Of a DNA stretch of 34,333 bases, positions 5,242-29,759 are shown one piece after another. The position numbers were made by a program, and so were the translations under genes. Within the stretch, counting starts at the first letter, position 1. Each line of letters starts with the position of its first letter. Origin of the DNA: a virus; the IMG/VR virus record IMGVR_UViG_3300046000_009007, positions 1 to 34,333 of that record. One strand, written 5' to 3'. The notes under the pieces are model-generated. The model saw only the letters and a program-made list of their open reading frames with translations. It had not been told where the DNA came from and did not search any database.

Positions 5242-6000
5242 TTAAACACTTAGGGCACGATCCCAAACTAATAAGTGTAATCTAGGGCTAAAGTTAACGC
5301 ACATAGCTTTGGCATACTCTACTACCACGGGCGCAGCTTCAATATGCTCTTTTCTAGAACCACAACAAGGCATAAACCAGACGTTAGTAGTAGGTACGCA
5401 AATATCACCATCAGGGTTAATGTATTTTCTATAAATTTCATCTATATCTTCTGACTTACTTATTACAAATTTAAAATCTGAACCGTTTCTTACATGCCAT
5501 CTTAATACATCAGGTTTATATGTCTTATCTTCTGGATCACCATTCGAGGTTAGTTTAGGTGAAGTTGTATATGTAACCTTAAAATTTCTCCATCCAGGAT
5601 TTGGCATTATCGTAGCATTAGTTTCAAAGTCAATATGAGGTAAGAAACCATATTTTTCTTTAAACGCTTGACAAATCTTAAGTAATTGATTCTGTTGAAT
5701 AAGAGGTTCACCACCTGTTAGCTTCCAAATCGCTCCAGCTTGAAGTTTATCAACAAACCCCCTACTCTCCATATAATCAAAAATTTCATTAAAGTTCATT
5801 TTATTTTTAACTGTCCAGGAGACATACGAGTCACATCCATTAGGTGAATCTGCACTAGCAAAACTTTTGCAAGTAAGATTACACATAGACATTCTCATGA
5901 AGACAGAAGGCTTACCAATATGTCGACCTTCCCCTTCAATAGTGTAAAACACTAAATCAGAACTTAAAAATAAGGTTTCTTTATCGCAGTCAATATTCAT
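5242..6000 (-). CDS. queE: 7-carboxy-7-deazaguanine synthase, QueE
   Basis: A 252-residue radical SAM protein that would convert carboxytetrahydropterin to CDG, the third step toward preQ0. Visible features are FYTIEGEGRHIGKPSVF (about 18-34), the family's substrate/SAM region, TGGEPLIQQ for the GGEP SAM-binding motif, and a C-terminal SPRLHLLVWDRALSV like that of other QueE proteins. The cluster cysteines are Cys40, Cys44 and Cys56 (CX3CX11C), so the third cysteine is displaced from the canonical CX3CX2C; extended spacings are known among QueE enzymes. Promoter at 6011-6038. It belongs with queD, folE and queC in this window. Confidence 0.88.
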   Translation of the reverse strand: MNIDCDKETLFLSSDLVFYTIEGEGRHIGKPSVFMRMSMCNLTCKSFASADSPNGCDSYVSWTVKNKMNFNEIFDYMESRGFVDKLQAGAIWKLTGGEPLIQQNQLLKICQAFKEKYGFLPHIDFETNATIMPNPGWRNFKVTYTTSPKLTSNGDPEDKTYKPDVLRWHVRNGSDFKFVISKSEDIDEIYRKYINPDGDICVPTTNVWFMPCCGSRKEHIEAAPVVVEYAKAMCVNFSPRLHLLVWDRALSV

Positions 6001-6101: not shown

Positions 6102-6854
6102 ATGTCTCGTAAAATAGCGCGTAAGCGTAAAAGTGACGGGTTGGAAGATGTAAATGAGATACGTACATCTTTACAGCAGAACTGGTTCTTAAATTTTAAA
6201 ATTAAGAAACCATTTCATTTTAATGAGCTTCATAAGAATTTTTATGATTGTATAAGACAAGATGAAACTAATATGGTGTTCGTGGATGGACCAGCAGGTA
6301 CTGGTAAGAGTTACATATCTGTTTTAGCTGCCTTAGAACTTTTTAAAGAACAGAAGATTAAATCTATAATCTATATTAGATCTGTAGTTGAGTCTGCTTC
6401 TAGATCTATTGGAGCATTACCTGGAGAGGTTGATGATAAATTTTCACCTTATGCAGCACCATTACTTGAAAAGGTAAAGGAGATTACAGATGAAGGCACC
6501 TTTAATCTCCTTAATTCAAACAACGTTTTACAAGCAATACCTGTAAACTTTGTAAGAGGTCTAACGTTTAATGATGCTGTAGTAATTGTTGATGAGTTTC
6601 AAAACCTAGATATGGCTGAAGCTATTACTATTCTTACTAGGTTCGGCCGTAATACTAAATATATCTTATGTGGTGACTCGTTTCAAGCTGATATCGGTAA
6701 TAAAACCTGTATTAATAGGCTTATAAACGCATTTGATACTGATGAAAGCGCTGCTAATCATATTTACTGCTTTAGATTCGGTGAAACTGAAATCGTTAGA
6801 AGTAAGATACTACGCTTTATTGTTAAAGCATTAGAGAAGATACCACGTATTTAA
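6102..6854 (+). CDS. phoH: PhoH-like ATPase
   Basis: About 250 residues. The P-loop is DGPAGTGKSY (residues 63-70 from the ATG at 6102) and the Walker B is VVIVDEFQNL (about 160-169). It also has GLTFNDA and a late CGDSFQAD sensor-like segment, together diagnostic of PhoH/PhoL ATPases. These are very common in marine phages; their role (RNA metabolism or phosphate stress) is unsettled. The start at 6102 is preferred to 6093 because 6093 touches the TATAAATA box. The first residues are strongly basic (RKIARKRKS). Its 3' end overlaps the convergent queD by 4 nt. Confidence 0.9.
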   Translation: MSRKIARKRKSDGLEDVNEIRTSLQQNWFLNFKIKKPFHFNELHKNFYDCIRQDETNMVFVDGPAGTGKSYISVLAALELFKEQKIKSIIYIRSVVESASRSIGALPGEVDDKFSPYAAPLLEKVKEITDEGTFNLLNSNNVLQAIPVNFVRGLTFNDAVVIVDEFQNLDMAEAITILTRFGRNTKYILCGDSFQADIGNKTCINRLINAFDTDESAANHIYCFRFGETEIVRSKILRFIVKALEKIPRI

Positions 6855-7501
6855 CCCCACGTTGTTCCTTCAAACCAACCTCCCTTACCGCTCGATACAG
6901 TATTTGTAATTTGAGCGGCTGTACTACGAGTTTGAGTGGGCGTTGCTGCACTAATATTAATGTCTGCCGGCGGTTCAGGTAAGAATGTATTACCTGTTGA
7001 TGTTTCTACTACAACAGCAGGAGACTCAATTTTTTCAACAGATTCAGCTTTTGACTTTGCTGTATATGTAGCTGAATTATCTTCATGCTCAAAGACCTCT
7101 ACTTTCTCTACCCAACATCTACCATTAGTAAGTGAACCAATATATTGTTGCGCAATATCAAATACTACTTTTGCAGTACGTTCAATTCCTACACCTTGGT
7201 CAAACACTCTTAATTGAATAAGTCCTTTACGTTCGAGTTCTCTAAAGGTCTCGAGCTCAGGATCATCACCAGCTACACACGTAGTATGATCAAACAAATA
7301 ATTAAGCTGAGCTTTAAGTTCTTTGAGACCACCGAAGTCTACTAACCATTGTTTATCATCTAATTGTGAACCACCAAACCAAAATTTAGCAATTAATTGG
7401 TATCCATGAATAAAGCGACAGTGTGAGTGTGTCGCTCTCCATTGTCTAAATGCGCAAGATCCTAATTCAATTACCTTAGTTGATTCATATTGTGACTTCA
7501 T
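6851..7501 (-). CDS. queD: 6-carboxytetrahydropterin synthase-like, QueD
   Basis: A 216-residue member of the PTPS/QueD superfamily, making carboxytetrahydropterin from dihydroneopterin triphosphate. FRQWRATHSHCRFIHGYQL (about 18-36) is the zinc-ligand and catalytic region, followed by WLVDFGGLKELK and LFDHTT, the counterparts of the xVxDF..LK and LDH motifs. The usual HGH is HGY (His32, Tyr34), with extra His25/His27 before Cys28; this fits a FRQW-type QueD-like subgroup. The catalytic domain ends near residue 130. The remaining roughly 85 residues are a Ser/Thr/Pro/Ala-rich tail ending in GGWFEGTTWG, unusual for QueD. Confidence 0.8.
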   Translation of the reverse strand: MKSQYESTKVIELGSCAFRQWRATHSHCRFIHGYQLIAKFWFGGSQLDDKQWLVDFGGLKELKAQLNYLFDHTTCVAGDDPELETFRELERKGLIQLRVFDQGVGIERTAKVVFDIAQQYIGSLTNGRCWVEKVEVFEHEDNSATYTAKSKAESVEKIESPAVVVETSTGNTFLPEPPADINISAATPTQTRSTAAQITNTVSSGKGGWFEGTTWG

Positions 7502-8209: not shown

Positions 8210-8860
8210 ATGACTGAAACGAATTCGAATAGCATCCTACCTCTTGCAAATAGTAACTATCCTTGTACAGAAAAGGAAAAACTACTAATTATTGAACGTG
8301 CTGCAGTAGCTTATGGTTTGTATCTAGATGCTCTTGGTTTTGATTGGAAGAATGATCCTAATTCAGCTAATACACCTACTCGAGTAGCAAAAGCGTTCGT
8401 TAATGATCTTGCTCGTGGATGTTATGATTCTCCTCCGAATATTACTGCATTTCCTAACGATGGTTATGACGGTATTGTTGCTCAGTGTAATATTCCTGTA
8501 CATTCGATGTGTAGTCATCATGCTCAACCTGTTGTTGGTGTAGCTCATGTAGCATATATCCCTAGTAAAGACGGGAAAGTAGTAGGTCTAAGTAAGCTAA
8601 ACCGTATTGTTGAGTTTTATGCTCGTCGACCTACTCTTCAAGAAGGGCTTACTATGCAAATCTTTGGTGCTATTAACGAAGCGTGTGAAGGTAACCTTGG
8701 TGTAGCAGTATTAGTAAAGGCTCAGCACTTTTGCGTGTGTGGTCGTGGTGTTAAACATCATGGAGGTAATATGGTAACAAGTAAGCTGTCAGGAGACTTC
8801 TTAAATGACGATAAGACTCGTACTGAATTCTATAAGTTTATCGATATGGCTACAGCATAA
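8210..8860 (+). CDS. folE: GTP cyclohydrolase I, FolE
   Basis: A 216-residue enzyme that opens GTP to dihydroneopterin triphosphate, the first step of the preQ0 pathway and of folate synthesis. Zinc ligands are visible in SMCSHHAQPVVG (Cys101, His103/104) and QHFCVCGRGVKHH (Cys175). VAYIPSKDGKVVGLSKLNRI and RRPTLQEGLT match the conserved substrate-binding stretch. Length is normal for the family. No preceding SD is seen; the start is fixed by the promoter at 8176-8203. With queD and queE nearby, supply of 7-deazaguanine is the likely use rather than folate. Confidence 0.93.
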   Translation: MTETNSNSILPLANSNYPCTEKEKLLIIERAAVAYGLYLDALGFDWKNDPNSANTPTRVAKAFVNDLARGCYDSPPNITAFPNDGYDGIVAQCNIPVHSMCSHHAQPVVGVAHVAYIPSKDGKVVGLSKLNRIVEFYARRPTLQEGLTMQIFGAINEACEGNLGVAVLVKAQHFCVCGRGVKHHGGNMVTSKLSGDFLNDDKTRTEFYKFIDMATA

Positions 8861-21011: not shown

Positions 21012-22247
21012 ATGTCGCTAATGTTACCTCAACCCTTTGCATATCCTTTTGCGTCTCCGTTCGCAAGCAGACCAGGAATCAATTCTTTTCTACCGCTCAA
21101 GGCACCATCATCTCCTATATCGCCCGGTGAACTAGGTCTACCGAGATATTTAAACTATCTCGGTGACTTAACTGGTTGTGGTCACTGGCGTATGCTCTGG
21201 CCAGAACAATTAATTAATATAAGAGGTAACGGTTGTTCTTCTTCGCTAACGAGCATGGTATTTGACCCGCGCTGGTATCAAGGTATTAAGTGCATTAAAA
21301 TTCAAAGACAAGCAAGTAAAGCTCAAAAAGATTTTGTTGCCTTTCTTAAAGGTATTCAAAAAGAACATGGGTTTAAATTAATATATGAAGTAGATGATGT
21401 AGTATTTGAAGAGGATATTCCAGATTATAATAAATTTAAATCTGCGTTTGTTGGAGGAGGAATTAGACAGAATTGTATTGACATTATTAATATGTGCGAT
21501 GAGGTCACCGTTACGTGTCAGTATATGAAAGACCTATACACTGCTCGTACCGGAAAGCAGGAAATTACAGTATTACCTAACTTCGTTCCAGACTTCTGGA
21601 TGGGTCATCTTTACAGTAGACGTAGAGTAGTTGATGCTTATGATCAGCACTATAAGAAACCAAGAATCCTTTATACTGGTTCTGGCGCTCATTATGATGT
21701 GGATAATAAGGTTAGTGGTAAGGATGACTTTGAACATGTTCTCAAGCTAGTTATTGACACACGTCACAAATATAAGTGGGTTTTCGTTGGAGCTTTTCCT
21801 CCACCCCTACTAGAATACGTTAAGTCGGGAGATATTGAATTTCATCCTTGGCAGAACTTACTTAACTATCCTAAATTTATTGCTAGCTTGCAAGCCCAAA
21901 TTATGATTGCACCTTTACAAGACAATAACTTTAATAAATCTAAGTCAGATATTAAGTTTGTTGAGGCCGCGGTATTAGGTATTCCCTGCCTATGCCAAGA
22001 CCTTGTTACATATAGTACTGCTCCAGAAAGTCTTAGATTTAAATCTGCTGAAGAACTTAAATTTAAAATTGAAACTATCTTAAGTTATAAGAATCGTAAA
22101 CAGTATAAAGAAAACATCGAGCTATTGAGAGGGTATGGTTTAACGCGTATTATGGAGAATGAAGAAAATATTGGATGTCATCTTGAAGCACTAAACACTC
22201 CATATAACTCTCCAGATCGTAAATATCTTAAACGCTGGAATCCATAA
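21012..22247 (+). CDS. GT-B-type glycosyltransferase
   Basis: A 411-residue protein. IYEVDDVVFEED (about 125-136) matches a segment seen in many GT4-type enzymes, and RILYTGSGAHYD starts the second Rossmann domain. IKFVEAAVLGIPCLCQDL (about 317-334) is the E-x7-E-like donor-binding region (the usual form is F..EA...G.P). The Pro-rich, hydrophobic first 45 residues are an extension. It lies between genes 46 and 43, where T4-like marine phages carry variable genes. It may glycosylate DNA or a virion protein; the location in the replication block makes DNA modification attractive, but no other evidence decides this. Confidence 0.8.
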   Translation: MSLMLPQPFAYPFASPFASRPGINSFLPLKAPSSPISPGELGLPRYLNYLGDLTGCGHWRMLWPEQLINIRGNGCSSSLTSMVFDPRWYQGIKCIKIQRQASKAQKDFVAFLKGIQKEHGFKLIYEVDDVVFEEDIPDYNKFKSAFVGGGIRQNCIDIINMCDEVTVTCQYMKDLYTARTGKQEITVLPNFVPDFWMGHLYSRRRVVDAYDQHYKKPRILYTGSGAHYDVDNKVSGKDDFEHVLKLVIDTRHKYKWVFVGAFPPPLLEYVKSGDIEFHPWQNLLNYPKFIASLQAQIMIAPLQDNNFNKSKSDIKFVEAAVLGIPCLCQDLVTYSTAPESLRFKSAEELKFKIETILSYKNRKQYKENIELLRGYGLTRIMENEENIGCHLEALNTPYNSPDRKYLKRWNP

Positions 22248-25356: not shown

Positions 25357-26481
25357 ATGGAAAAAGATATTAAAAGTGCATTGGATAGCTTAGATGAAAT
25401 CAATCCCTATGCTACTTATCTAGATAAAAGTACACTTAGTCAAGTTGATAGCTGGATTGACACTGGTTCTTATGCACTCAATGCAATTATCTCTGGCTCA
25501 TGCTATAAAGGTATCCCGATGGGTCGAGTAACAGTACTAGCCGGTGAATCACAAACTTTTAAAACCGGTTTCTTACTTAGGGTATTAGCCAATGCTCAGA
25601 AGGGAGGAAAGACCGTTGTAATCTTTGACTCAGAAAACGCAGTTGATCCTGATAGTGCTACTGCTGCTGGTCTAGATATTACTAAAGTTAAGTATGTACC
25701 GTGCAAGACAATTGAGCAGACTCGAAATGCTATTTTTAACTTCCTGACTAAGGTTGAAGAGAAGAAACTTGAAGGTCAATTCGTTATTGCTGTAGACTCA
25801 CTTAGTAACTTGCAGTCTGAGTTAGAGTATAAACGAATGGATAAAGACAATACAAGTTCTGATATGGGTAGTAAGGCACGAGCGATGAAGAGCTTAATGC
25901 AGACTCTTACTAATCTTGGAGCCTATACTCGTACAACTGTAATCGCTACTTCACATGTGTATGATAATCCTGCAGAACTATTTCCAAGTATTGAAAAGAA
26001 CATGCCTGGTGGTAAGTCAGTAATTTACCTACCGTCAGTAACTGTTCAGATTGCTCGTAAACCTTTAAAAGATGATGGTGGTAAGACTACCGACAGTAGC
26101 TTAACTGTTGGTCAAAAAAGCTACTCTGGTATTATTCTACGAGCTCTAACTCGTAAGAATCGCTTCATTAAACAGTATCTTGAAGTTGAGATGTACTTAT
26201 CATTTACTAATGGACTTAACAAATATTACGGTCTACTCGACCTAATGACTGGTTTTAATATTATTGTTCAGACAGGAGCTACTTATCAACTACCTAATGG
26301 TCAAAAGTTAGGTTTTTATCGCAACTTCCGTAAAGATAAGGAACTATGGGAGAATATACTTATACCACAATTAGAAGAAAAGATTAATGTAGAGTGGAAA
26401 TACTCATCTAAACCTATACAAGATGAGGAAGCAGAATTAGATCAAGAACTAACCGATGAACCAGATAACACAAATGAATAA
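25357..26481 (+). CDS. uvsX: RecA-like recombinase UvsX
   Basis: A 374-residue recombinase. GESQTFKT (63-70) is the Walker A in the form usual for T4-like UvsX, VVIFDSENAV and FVIAVDSLSNLQ are the following core strands, and GGKSVIYLPSVTVQIARK belongs to the DNA-binding region. The C-terminus is acidic (DEEAELDQELTDEPD), typical of the family. It forms the presynaptic filament with UvsY and gp32, both encoded here. Its end overlaps the queC start by 8 nt. Confidence 0.95.
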   Translation: MEKDIKSALDSLDEINPYATYLDKSTLSQVDSWIDTGSYALNAIISGSCYKGIPMGRVTVLAGESQTFKTGFLLRVLANAQKGGKTVVIFDSENAVDPDSATAAGLDITKVKYVPCKTIEQTRNAIFNFLTKVEEKKLEGQFVIAVDSLSNLQSELEYKRMDKDNTSSDMGSKARAMKSLMQTLTNLGAYTRTTVIATSHVYDNPAELFPSIEKNMPGGKSVIYLPSVTVQIARKPLKDDGGKTTDSSLTVGQKSYSGIILRALTRKNRFIKQYLEVEMYLSFTNGLNKYYGLLDLMTGFNIIVQTGATYQLPNGQKLGFYRNFRKDKELWENILIPQLEEKINVEWKYSSKPIQDEEAELDQELTDEPDNTNE

Positions 26482-27220
26482 ATTAGTATTAGCATTTTCC
26501 GGAGGTGCAGATAGTACTGTGCTTCTGCATATGGCCGTAGATAGAGGATATAAGAATATCCATACTCTAACTTTTGACTACGGTCAGAGACACAATCGTG
26601 AAATCGACTGTGTTAAAAGTCAAATCAGACAGTTACAGCAAAAGTATCCAAGTGTAACTATTACCAATAAGCTTTTAGATGTAACTTACATTAAGGATAT
26701 CTCACCTACATCATCATTAACTAATAAATCTATTGATAACCCTGATATCAATAAGATTGCAGGTGATGCACAACCTGTATCATATGTACCATTTAGGAAT
26801 ATGATGTTCCTATCTATCTGTTGCGCTTATGCAGAGAGTATGAAAGCTAATACTGTATGGTATGGAGCTGCACAAATTGACTCAGCGGCCGGCTACTGGG
26901 ATGGAAGTACAGAGTTCATCGATAATATCAATAATGTTCTAAATCTTAATCGTCAGACCTTAATTAATATCGAAGCACCTCTCATCGATATGTCTAAGTC
27001 AGAGATTATACTCGAAGGTAACCGGTTAGGAGTATCTTTTGGTGATACTTGGACCTGTTACTCTAATGACAAGAGTGGGTTAGCTGATGCTACCACTCCA
27101 TCTAGTAGTTTAAGGTTAGCAGGCTTTATACAAGCGAAACTACAAGACCCTATTCGATATGCTCAACAAGATCATATCGATGTACTATATGCAAAGCACG
27201 AGTGCAAGAAAATAGCCTAA
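26474..27220 (+). CDS. queC: 7-cyano-7-deazaguanine (preQ0) synthase-like, QueC
   Basis: About 248 residues from ATG 26474 (MNKLVLAFSGG); an ATG at 26456 would sit deeper in uvsX. SGGADS (9-14) is the PP-loop ATP motif, and TLTFDYGQRHNREI with VPFRNMMFL matches QueC. It would convert CDG to preQ0. The zinc site is unusual: after TWTC the other three cysteines of the usual Cys-rich motif are replaced (SGLADATTPSSSLRLAGF). Hence either zinc is bound otherwise or the protein has a changed job. It starts in the last codons of uvsX (8-nt overlap), so both are expressed together. Confidence 0.88.
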   Translation: MNKLVLAFSGGADSTVLLHMAVDRGYKNIHTLTFDYGQRHNREIDCVKSQIRQLQQKYPSVTITNKLLDVTYIKDISPTSSLTNKSIDNPDINKIAGDAQPVSYVPFRNMMFLSICCAYAESMKANTVWYGAAQIDSAAGYWDGSTEFIDNINNVLNLNRQTLINIEAPLIDMSKSEIILEGNRLGVSFGDTWTCYSNDKSGLADATTPSSSLRLAGFIQAKLQDPIRYAQQDHIDVLYAKHECKKIA

Positions 27221-27221
27221 C

Positions 27222-28316
27222 TTATAAGCCGTAGTTACGTAACTCTTGTAACTGCCAGCTGGTTTTAGGTTTATATTTTTCGGTAAAAGATAACGAGGCT
27301 TCATTAGAAGCCTTATTGTATTTATCTTTCTTAACCTGCTCTGTAAGATATTCAGCAGTAGTTGATTCATTAAATCCTCTCTGCTCAGCTAATCTTTTCT
27401 CCCAAGGCTTTGTTGTGCCGTCATTATCAACATCTGCTTTTTCCTCATCATATTTATTAGACTCTTCATCTTCAGATTTAGAGGCTGAGATAGCATCTTC
27501 AACTGGTTTAATTATATCAGCAAGATACTGAGCAATAAGTTCGAAACCAGGTTTACGACCTACTTGATCAACAAATCTCTTTAATTGGTCTAAGGTAGAT
27601 ATTTTATCAGCTACGAAGCCCGCTGCTGAGATAACATTTTTTAGATCAATATCAAGACCCTCTTTACCTAGATTTTTTCCAATATATTTAAAAACTTCAG
27701 CCGCATAAGATTTTAAAATAACATCTTCACCAGCAGCATAGGCTCTTGCTACTGAATCATCTAGACCCGTAGCAATAACTTCAACTGCAGCTGCCGCTCT
27801 AGGACCTTTACTTTTACCCTTAGCTTGCTGCCTTAGTTCTGTAGCTAGTTTCTTAGCCTCCTTCTTTTGTTCTCTAGCTTGAGCTTTCATTTCCTCAGCA
27901 GCTTGATTAGCAGAGTATTTTGTTTCACCTCTACTAGGACCTTTAGCAGCTCCACGATTTGTACCAGCTCTCTTAAAAAATCTAGGTAATTCGTCTTCAA
28001 TAGTTTCCTTAACTTCTTCAGCTCTCCGTATTATATCTTCTTTGTATAGATCGATAAATCCTAGCAAAGCATTCTTTCTAGGTAAAGTAGAGGAACCTTT
28101 TATAGATTCCCACTGAGTTGCATCCTCTTGACTAATTATCTCAAGTCTTTTTAACACATTAATAATTACTAACATTGTGTCACGAGGAGGAGAAGAAGCG
28201 CCTGCAGCTTTTAACCGCTTAGTAATATCCTTAAAAACAGGGTTTTTAACTTCGTAAGGTGAGACATTACCTTCACTAACTATTTGAGAACGGTTAACTA
28301 AATCGTTAAAATTCAT
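27222..28316 (-). CDS. Putative virion or internal protein on the antisense strand
   Basis: A 364-residue protein of no recognised family. The start MNFNDLVNRSQIVSEGN resembles the leader peptides of the 9.4-15.8 kb cluster. The middle is Ala/Lys/Glu-rich and helical (AAEEMKAQAREQKKEAKKLA). An EF-hand-like loop, DVDNDGTTKPWEKRLAE, lies near residue 292, and a second possible protease site (TAEYLTEQ) follows. These features suit a scaffold, portal-associated or injected head protein. It is the only leftward gene in the replication block, convergent with queC (one base apart), and has its own late box (28324-28331). Confidence 0.6.
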   Translation of the reverse strand: MNFNDLVNRSQIVSEGNVSPYEVKNPVFKDITKRLKAAGASSPPRDTMLVIINVLKRLEIISQEDATQWESIKGSSTLPRKNALLGFIDLYKEDIIRRAEEVKETIEDELPRFFKRAGTNRGAAKGPSRGETKYSANQAAEEMKAQAREQKKEAKKLATELRQQAKGKSKGPRAAAAVEVIATGLDDSVARAYAAGEDVILKSYAAEVFKYIGKNLGKEGLDIDLKNVISAAGFVADKISTLDQLKRFVDQVGRKPGFELIAQYLADIIKPVEDAISASKSEDEESNKYDEEKADVDNDGTTKPWEKRLAEQRGFNESTTAEYLTEQVKKDKYNKASNEASLSFTEKYKPKTSWQLQELRNYGL

Positions 28317-28323
28317 ATAACAT

Positions 28324-28331
28324 TATTTATT
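28324..28331 (-). promoter_or_regulatory. T4-late-like promoter, AATAAATA
   Basis: AATAAATA on the minus strand, 7 nt before the ATG at 28314-28316. Late leftward transcription from here would run antisense toward queC. Confidence 0.6.
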
Positions 28332-28365
28332 TAAACTAAGCTTTTTAAGTAGAAAATATCTAGAA

Positions 28366-28371
28366 TACAAT
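28366..28371 (+). promoter_or_regulatory. Candidate -10 box before the amidotransferase gene
   Basis: TACAAT preceded by ATCTA-GAA, a partial match to the GAACTA-N3 arrangement. No good -35. The ATG at 28387 is 15 nt away with an AGG at 28379-28381, so this gene may have a normal short leader. Confidence 0.35.
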
Positions 28372-28386
28372 TATCATTAGGTATAT

Positions 28387-29091
28387 ATGTGTTCAATTAT
28401 TGGTGCTAATACGCTATCTAAGTTAGAGATCTTGTATGAAGCAAATGTCGAGCGTGGGACATTTGCTAGTAGTGTACTAGGCTTATATGACTATGATAAA
28501 CAGTATGTTCATAAGCAGGAAGGTATTATTGAATTTAATAAAATAAATGTAAACGACTCGTTTGACTTCTTTATCAGTCATATGCAGGCACCTACGTCAT
28601 CAAAACGTAATTGGTCTCAAGATACATCGCATCCCTTTGAGTCATTAAACTGGATGGTACTTCATAATGGTGTATTAACTAACTGGAAGAGTCTTAATAA
28701 AGAATATACTCCATGGAACGTAAATCCTGTCGATACATCAGTAATAGCTTGTATGTTACAGGAGTTTTCTACAGGTGAGACCGGAAGTGGTAAGTCACCT
28801 CCACCTATTGATGTAGTTACTAAGGTATTAGAGCTTCTAGAAGGTACGTTTGCTCTTTGTATTGTTAATACCAGTACTAATACTGTATATCTCGCTCGTC
28901 AAGGTTCTATATTACACTATCATAGTAGCGGTTCTTTCTCTACTCTACCTGGTAAAGATTATACGTTACTTAAAGAAGGGGAAATCCTAATGATTGAAAA
29001 TTATGATCCTTGGATTGCAGTGGGTGAAAATTATGATATGTGGAAATCAGCAGGTAAGTTTAAAACTAAATCACCTTTCTTGTTTGTATGA
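28387..29091 (+). CDS. Class II glutamine amidotransferase
   Basis: A 234-residue protein with an N-terminal nucleophile. MCSIIGANT gives Cys2 after Met removal; SHMQAPT (about 64-70) and MVLHNGVLTNW (about 90-100, Asn94-Gly95) are the glutamine-binding and oxyanion elements known from GlmS and PurF, and NPVDTSVIACML parallels their later SDTEVIA motif. It releases ammonia from glutamine for a partner enzyme, but no synthetase domain is fused. In 7-deazaguanine phages and archaea a Gat domain is fused to QueC to make archaeosine from preQ0; with queC 1.2 kb upstream, a split version is plausible. Overlaps the next gene by 4 nt (ATGA). Confidence 0.85.
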   Translation: MCSIIGANTLSKLEILYEANVERGTFASSVLGLYDYDKQYVHKQEGIIEFNKINVNDSFDFFISHMQAPTSSKRNWSQDTSHPFESLNWMVLHNGVLTNWKSLNKEYTPWNVNPVDTSVIACMLQEFSTGETGSGKSPPPIDVVTKVLELLEGTFALCIVNTSTNTVYLARQGSILHYHSSGSFSTLPGKDYTLLKEGEILMIENYDPWIAVGENYDMWKSAGKFKTKSPFLFV

Positions 29092-29759
29092 AATATTTTC
29101 TATTCTCAGCTACTAAAGGTAGCAAAAAAAATACTCTTCTCTTTAACTCTAGTACTGAAAAATGGTTCTTTAAAGAGAATAATAAAAAGTCACTAGCTAA
29201 ATTATATAATAAAGCTCTGCAATTCGGTAAACAGGAAGATGTTGACTTTGTTGTATTGTGTCATGATGATGTTATCATTGAATCAACAGACTTTTTATAT
29301 CGTCTACAGGATTTACATAAAAAATATGATGTAGTTGGTGTAGCTGGTACTACAGAATGCACTATTCAAGAACCAGTACTCTGGCATCTAATGGGCGGAG
29401 GTTTCCAGGGAGGTAATTTAAGAGGCGCTGTAGCTCATGGGGATACAAACAATAAGCATATGACTAGTTTTGGTGCTTTTCCGAGTCCTGTAGTATTAGC
29501 TGATGGTGTTTTTCTGTCTGTTAGTAAAACAGTGTTTGATAAGGTCACATTCGATGAAAAATGCCCATCTAAGTTCCATATGTATGACCTTTCATTCTGT
29601 TTAGATGCTAGTCTAGCTAAACTAAGAGTAGGGGTAGGTGATATTTTAATAACACATGCTTCGCCAGGACTCAGAGAGTTAACTCCTGAGTTTTTAGAGG
29701 GTCAAAAATGGTTTTTATCAAAATATAAGCAATACGCTGGTAAAAAACTAACTGTATAG
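29088..29759 (+). CDS. GT-A glycosyltransferase, StrF-like
   Basis: A 223-residue protein. FVVLCHDDVIIE (about 54-65) has the DDV metal motif typical of the StrF-type/Glyco_tranf_2_5 group, and DVVGVAGT, LADGVFLSVSK and HMYDLSFCLDAS match the rest of that fold (acceptor and late metal-binding residues). Its ATG overlaps the amidotransferase stop by 4 nt, implying coupled translation and perhaps a shared product, for example an amino-sugar or an amidated and glycosylated base. The true substrate is not evident. Confidence 0.75.
   Translation: MKYFLFSATKGSKKNTLLFNSSTEKWFFKENNKKSLAKLYNKALQFGKQEDVDFVVLCHDDVIIESTDFLYRLQDLHKKYDVVGVAGTTECTIQEPVLWHLMGGGFQGGNLRGAVAHGDTNNKHMTSFGAFPSPVVLADGVFLSVSKTVFDKVTFDEKCPSKFHMYDLSFCLDASLAKLRVGVGDILITHASPGLRELTPEFLEGQKWFLSKYKQYAGKKLTV

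Follow-up and report, generated by a model that had tools for sequence, protein, structure and literature searches.

The 34,333-nucleotide virus fragment IMGVR_UViG_3300046000_009007 (IMG/VR), the whole of which is referred to here as the window, encodes a QueC homologue and a separate class II glutamine amidotransferase (GAT), the latter probably the glutaminase subunit of QueC in a two-gene synthase for 7-cyano-7-deazaguanine (preQ0), with a product that would be converted to preQ1 and placed in the phage DNA, perhaps after formylation. The window carries a T4-like replication cluster (UvsW, gp47/46, gp43, UvsX, and gp41) and comes from a marine T4-like phage with a large family of relatives, the nearest cultured of which possess polymerases only ~31–32% identical to that of the window. 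The contigs of this virus together cover ~97 kb of a genome that is probably near 200 kb in size. A preliminary description of the window had noted a complete gene set leading from GTP to preQ0, and a class II amidotransferase with nucleophile Cys2 and no synthetase domain at a distance of 1.2 kb from queC. The gene set is present in full (folE, queD, queE, and queC, based on Pfam and PHROG matches; Table 1), the GAT is a separate open reading frame (ORF) that starts 1,166 bp downstream of the queC stop, and its reported features are borne out by its Met-Cys start, its GATase_6 domain, and a GlmS-like predicted fold.

The GAT is a protein of 234 amino acids in which GATase_6 is the sole Pfam domain above threshold, and no synthetase domain was found with Pfam. 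The M1-C2 start, from which removal of the methionine would leave a cysteine nucleophile, is shared with nearly all complete relatives. Across 57 relatives, conservation extends to C2, R23-G24, H65, Q67, P69-T70, H82-P83, H93-N94-G95, and D116, including the oxyanion pair N94-G95 (98%) and the glutamine-binding D116 (100%). The AlphaFold model (pLDDT 91, with the last ~30 residues less well predicted alone) best matches the glutaminase domain of GlmS (Z 24.5; root-mean-square deviation 2.3 over 205 residues), with further matches to PurF (Z 23.3), EgtC (19.1), and AsnB (18.4), all consistent with the class II fold. Based on the sequence and the model, the protein is predicted to belong to the class II glutamine amidotransferases (N-terminal nucleophile hydrolases) and to possess glutaminase activity, and the conserved F225..P230-F231 of its C-terminal tail could act in docking. 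Listeria matches in the first search were ordinary GlmS and not members of this family, and the more distant phage GATs (examined in phage Bjorn) belong to another subfamily located in amidoligase clusters. No description of the separate GAT was found in the literature, the coverage of which was incomplete.

The pairing of queC and GAT is real and not a product of chance, because a same-strand GAT lies 3' of queC in 70 of 71 related viral loci and because the pair recurs in independent contexts elsewhere. To collect the loci, viral sequences were scanned with the window QueC; identities reached down to 46%, and a locus was kept if it had a GAT or if the sequence available on the downstream side amounted to 4 kb or more. 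Near-identical strains are included in these synteny counts. The distance between the two genes ranges from -29 to +2,870 bp, with some pairs overlapping. A homologous GAT, usually annotated as 'hypothetical', occurs directly 3' of queC in the Vibrio phages KVP40, nt-1, 6E35.1a, 1.081.O, and F86 and in Pseudomonas phage pf16, where the cluster order is FolE, DpdA2 (PHROG 10773 or its position; family membership checked in 6E35.1a, pf16, and 1.081.O), usually QueF, QueC, and GAT. In Vibrio phage 2.275.O, the GAT is located between queC and folE. Two of the 'hypothetical' genes of this GAT family directly 3' of queC are VPFG_00173 of nt-1 (L019:18099-18707) and KVP40.0125 of KVP40 (L015:6714-7322). 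Phylogenetically, the QueCs accompanied by a separate GAT group together in a single clade (support 99/98), apart from the stand-alone phage QueCs and from the fused Gat-QueC of SE1 and PhiXhv-12 (100/99); several other rows of this tree are long-branched and only the separate-GAT grouping was used. The linkage, the independent phage contexts, and the single QueC clade support the partnership that had been proposed in the preliminary description, with GAT and QueC belonging together within a 7-deazaguanine DNA-modification pathway.

A different partner for the GAT could be the glycosyltransferase-like gene that follows it, in which case the amidotransferase would serve in the making of an amino sugar or an amidated glycan, or would serve some other enzyme, with QueC as a mere neighbour. 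The four-base ATGA overlap of the two genes is kept in many relatives, the glycosyltransferase-like gene is a conserved neighbour of GAT in the window clade, and the closest sequence to the GAT is GlmS, an amino-sugar enzyme. This arrangement is unlikely to reflect the function of the GAT, however, as the glycosyltransferase-like gene is neither beside the GAT nor annotated there in the Vibrio phages and pf16, where the GAT abuts queC, and among the relatives of the window there are several in which the GAT overlaps queC and others in which the glycosyltransferase is more than 1 kb away.

The queC ORF begins at position 26456, and the start at 26474 given in the preliminary description is an internal ATG. 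The encoded protein passes the curated QueC equivalog model TIGR00364 of NCBIfam (153.8 bits; cut-off, 150.3) and, in alignment, retains the motifs SGGADS, YGQRHNRE, and VPFRN and the tyrosine of CY. The residues found to be essential in Escherichia coli QueC, namely the tyrosine of YxQxHxxE, the arginine of VPxRN, the tyrosine of YPDC, and the tyrosine beside the first zinc cysteine (PMC13329287), are all present in the window QueC, where YPDC reads YWDG. The zinc motif C(x)8CxxCxxC is absent (TCYSNDKSGLADATTPSSSLR), with C201 kept and the other three cysteines replaced by alanine, threonine, and serine. In the tree, this loss characterizes a clade of 15 rows (support 100/99) and recurs in L060; by one count the motif is intact in 38 of the 78 related QueCs, and by another it is lost in 38 of the 78. 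As read from the alignment, the window-clade QueC has lost its zinc site and kept its other catalytic residues.

The fate of preQ0 is indicated by QueF. Contig G035 shares 19,349 bp with the window at 100% identity and adds 41 kb of this virus on the left, up to a contig end that falls within a QueF gene; a pattern scan for further sequence past QueF returned nothing. The truncated QueF of G035 scores above the cut-off for PF14819 (QueF_N). In L237, a ~90% relative from a different sample, in which a further contig encodes a 91% QueC and a 94% GAT, the QueF is 87% identical and contains both PF14819 (1.4e-30) and PF14489 (2.1e-19). The QueF equivalog TIGR03138 (cut-off, 293.45) is reached neither by G035 (137.8, truncated) nor by G009 (238.9), and the QueF of Vibrio phage 6E35.1a is also below it (215.8). 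QueF_N is present in all of the large GAT-bearing relatives, except for the incomplete G012, and in KVP40, 6E35.1a, pf16, and 2.275.O, while the QueF_N search returned no match in nt-1 (whole genome), in CPt10, or in SE1 and PhiXhv-12, whose Gat-QueC is fused. In published work, 15% of the deoxyguanosine (dG) of 6E35.1A DNA was modified and the mass was compatible with dPreQ1 (PMC12028318), and nt-1 DNA contained dPreQ0 and dADG together with dG+ at a trace level (0.02% of G; PMC6884629). Given the distribution of QueF and this published chemistry, preQ1, perhaps formylated, is therefore the likeliest base, and archaeosine would be at most a by-product.

An archaeosine-like base had been suggested in the preliminary description as the product of a possible split Gat-QueC; in this reading, GAT and QueC would jointly convert preQ0 to archaeosine (G+), either as the free base or within DNA. 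There is precedent in phage 9g, where a fused Gat-QueC and DpdA together account for dG+ in the DNA (PMC6884629), and the dG+ traces of nt-1, accompanied by dPreQ0 and dADG, occur in a phage with a GAT beside QueC and no QueF_N match. For the window this outcome is quite unlikely. QueF, which would compete for preQ0, is encoded by this virus and, with one exception, by every large contig with GAT and QueC, whereas neither of the two phages with a fused Gat-QueC gave a QueF_N match, and 6E35.1A, which possesses both GAT and QueF, is the phage reported with the dPreQ1 mass (PMC12028318). Descent from a fused enzyme is likewise not favoured, with the QueC grouping away from Gat-QueC and the GAT distant from its Gat domain. 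Against the GAT family profile, GlmS reaches 69 bits, compared with 33 and 16 bits for the Gat domains of SE1 and PhiXhv-12 Gat-QueC, respectively; at the sequence level, the queC-GAT system therefore looks like an independent pairing that resembles Gat-QueC in the supply of ammonia and not like a divided Gat-QueC.

No Tgt- or DpdA-like transglycosylase was found in the window, as had been stated previously, and for DpdA the preliminary description had looked to the rest of the genome. A transglycosylase is present in the genomes of relatives, and the contig of this virus ends just before that locus. Searches of the relatives with PF01702 (TGT), PHROG 10773 (DpdA2), and PHROG 1279 matched no transglycosylase, a result that was not taken as absence because PF01702 fails to detect the DpdA2 known from 6E35.1a and matches nothing in CPt10. 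Profile searches of four large genomes with DpdA1 and DpdA2 returned chance-level matches only, and an hhalign comparison of shallow DpdA1 and DpdA2 alignments was dropped, as these two could not be linked to each other. Among the proteins conserved in all of four large related contigs (185–201 kb) is one of 268–281 residues and unknown family, which is 48–49% identical, over 97%, to a protein of the Campylobacter phages CP220 and CPt10 and 51% identical to a Flavobacterium phage immuto protein annotated as DpdA. All 50 of the 50 best PDB matches to its model (pLDDT 93) are tRNA-guanine transglycosylases (probability 1.00), and from model and sequence it is predicted to be a CP220-type DNA-guanine transglycosylase. 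The CP220 protein itself is taken to be the CP220 transglycosylase, based on the fold, the immuto annotation, and Cui et al. 2023, who are reported to have named this type DpdA3.

Of the large contigs with QueC, six contain the transglycosylase gene in full and a seventh breaks off within it; in the reverse direction, GAT is present on some of the contigs found via the transglycosylase (G024, G025, and G029). One relative, G008 (196,877 bases), has two transglycosylase matches, at 3-359 (cut by the contig end) and 188260-189066, which could reflect either a duplicated gene or the edge of the assembly. In L237, the transglycosylase, a formyltransferase (PF00551), a nucleoside-kinase-like gene, and QueF are consecutive, and immuto possesses the same four genes in the same order; the virus of the window presumably carries the transglycosylase as well. 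The formyltransferase search covered 15 viral contigs, of which 8 gave a match, and nine named phages, of which none did. The name DpdN has been used for a dPreQ1 formyltransferase, reportedly by de Crecy-Lagard et al. 2024.

The type of transglycosylase also raises the prospect that a zinc-less QueC with GAT halts at the amide (ADG), such that the DNA would contain dADG like that of Campylobacter phage CP220. ADG is the intermediate through which the QueC reaction passes (PMC13329287), and CP220 and CPt10, the phages with this type of transglycosylase, have 100% of dG replaced by dADG (PMC8306585). It is nonetheless very improbable that the pathway stops there, as QueF, conserved here, requires the nitrile preQ0, and CPt10, which lacks a match to QueF_N, has a QueC that retains its zinc cysteines and no match to this GAT.

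In the proposed pathway, FolE, QueD, and QueE would make 7-carboxy-7-deazaguanine, which QueC, in a physical complex with GAT, would convert to preQ0 with ATP and with ammonia passed on from the hydrolysis of glutamine at Cys2 of the GAT. QueF, a nitrile reductase, would then reduce preQ0 to preQ1, the CP220-type transglycosylase would swap preQ1 for guanine in the phage DNA, and the formyltransferase may cap the aminomethyl group, with resistance to host restriction as the likely benefit. Several points weigh against this scheme. Canonical QueC uses free ammonia and requires no GAT. The glutamine-binding arginine of GlmS is replaced by Gln67 across the whole GAT family, and with the zinc site lost, the catalytic activity of the window QueC is not assured. 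The gene order UvsX-QueC-GAT-glycosyltransferase-gp41 is itself conserved in the window clade, and with the whole replication cluster syntenic, the closeness of queC and GAT is therefore weaker evidence there than in the Vibrio phages and pf16. A zinc-less queC at L033:6638-7384 has no GAT nearby in more than 9 kb of downstream sequence, the only such locus among the relatives, and no GAT was seen beside the QueC of Dp-1, immuto, or CPt10, the last of which has no match to the window GAT family in its whole genome. A wider extension is rather less probable, namely that a hitherto unnamed two-subunit, glutamine-dependent preQ0 synthase, with a QueC zinc site that one lineage has given up, feeds QueF, a formyltransferase, and a transglycosylase of the CP220 type, and that in the DNA of a large, uncultured clade of marine T4-like phages preQ1 or formyl-preQ1 takes the place of a large part, or even the whole, of the guanine.

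Table 1. Genes of the window relevant to the proposed preQ0 synthase and their neighbours
Gene	Predicted product	Position	Strand	Basis and remarks
queE	radical SAM 7-carboxy-7-deazaguanine synthase homologue	5242-6000	-	PHROG 2076 6.5e-40
queD	6-carboxytetrahydropterin synthase homologue	6851-7501	-	PF01242 9.4e-15; PHROG 2389 5.8e-37
folE	GTP cyclohydrolase I	8210-8860	+	PF01227 2e-46; PHROG 2197 1.8e-57
queC	PP-loop ATP-dependent preQ0 synthase homologue	26456-27220	+	PF06508 4e-52
ORF between queC and GAT		27222-28316	-	fast-evolving, no known family; outside the proposed enzyme
GAT	stand-alone class II glutamine amidotransferase (glutaminase)	28387-29091	+	PF13522 GATase_6 E 8.6e-9, above cut-off
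glycosyltransferase-like gene	glycosyltransferase-like protein	29088-29759	+	PF13712 1.6e-11; ATG overlaps GAT stop (ATGA)

Two of the upstream pathway genes depart from the usual motifs. The queE product matches the NCBIfam QueE models at 2e-15, below their cut-off, and has the cysteine spacing CxxxC(x)11C (MCNLTCKSFASADSPNGCDS) where CxxxCxxC is usual, as is also the case in L013 and G008. At the usual HGH zinc-ligand motif of QueD, IHGYQ is found (by eye), again shared with the L013 relative. The ORF between queC and GAT has 52–86% identity in close relatives in which its neighbours have 91–99%. The window also contains a glycan-related gene set that is sizeable for a phage, at 45-791, 2059-2904, 21012-22247, and 1569-2072, comprising two genes that resemble family-2 glycosyltransferases, a third glycosyltransferase-like gene recognized by eye, and an FkbM-like methyltransferase.

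Phage DNA modification with 7-deazaguanines is already known as a general class. What the analysis adds is a testable role, as the glutaminase partner of QueC, for a 'hypothetical' gene of the model phages KVP40 and nt-1 which, if true, would offer an alternative source for the dG+ traces of nt-1, to date attributed to an ArcS homologue. Further, guanine replacement is predicted across a large group of marine T4-like phages, and the window clade shows that loss of the zinc site in a QueC can go along with retention of the remaining catalytic residues.

Among known systems, the fused Gat-QueC of archaea and of phage 9g (Nonagvirus) likewise combines a class II glutaminase and a QueC-type PP-loop enzyme within a 7-deazaguanine pathway, with a transglycosylase alongside, whereas the system of the window consists of two genes, has a glutaminase nearer in sequence to GlmS and a QueC of another clade, is accompanied by QueF and, in the window clade, has lost the zinc site. 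The cluster of KVP40, nt-1, and 6E35.1a (FolE, DpdA2, QueF, QueC, and an unnamed GAT corresponding to PHROG 12378) likewise places a member of this GAT family immediately 3' of a QueC that belongs with the window QueC in one clade, and includes a transglycosylase and usually QueF; the Vibrio phages, however, use DpdA2 and keep the zinc cysteines of QueC, while the window clade has a CP220-type transglycosylase and genes scattered over the genome. CP220/CPt10 and immuto share the transglycosylase (48–51% identical) and, for immuto, the gene order, but CPt10 has no separate GAT, no QueF_N match, and dADG in its DNA, and immuto has no GAT annotated beside queC. The two-subunit archaeal GMP synthetase and asparagine synthetase B (AsnB) offer a more general likeness, in that a glutaminase subunit or domain supplies ammonia to a PP-loop ATP-pyrophosphatase, though both act on other substrates, the glutaminase of GMP synthetase is of class I, and AsnB is a single chain.

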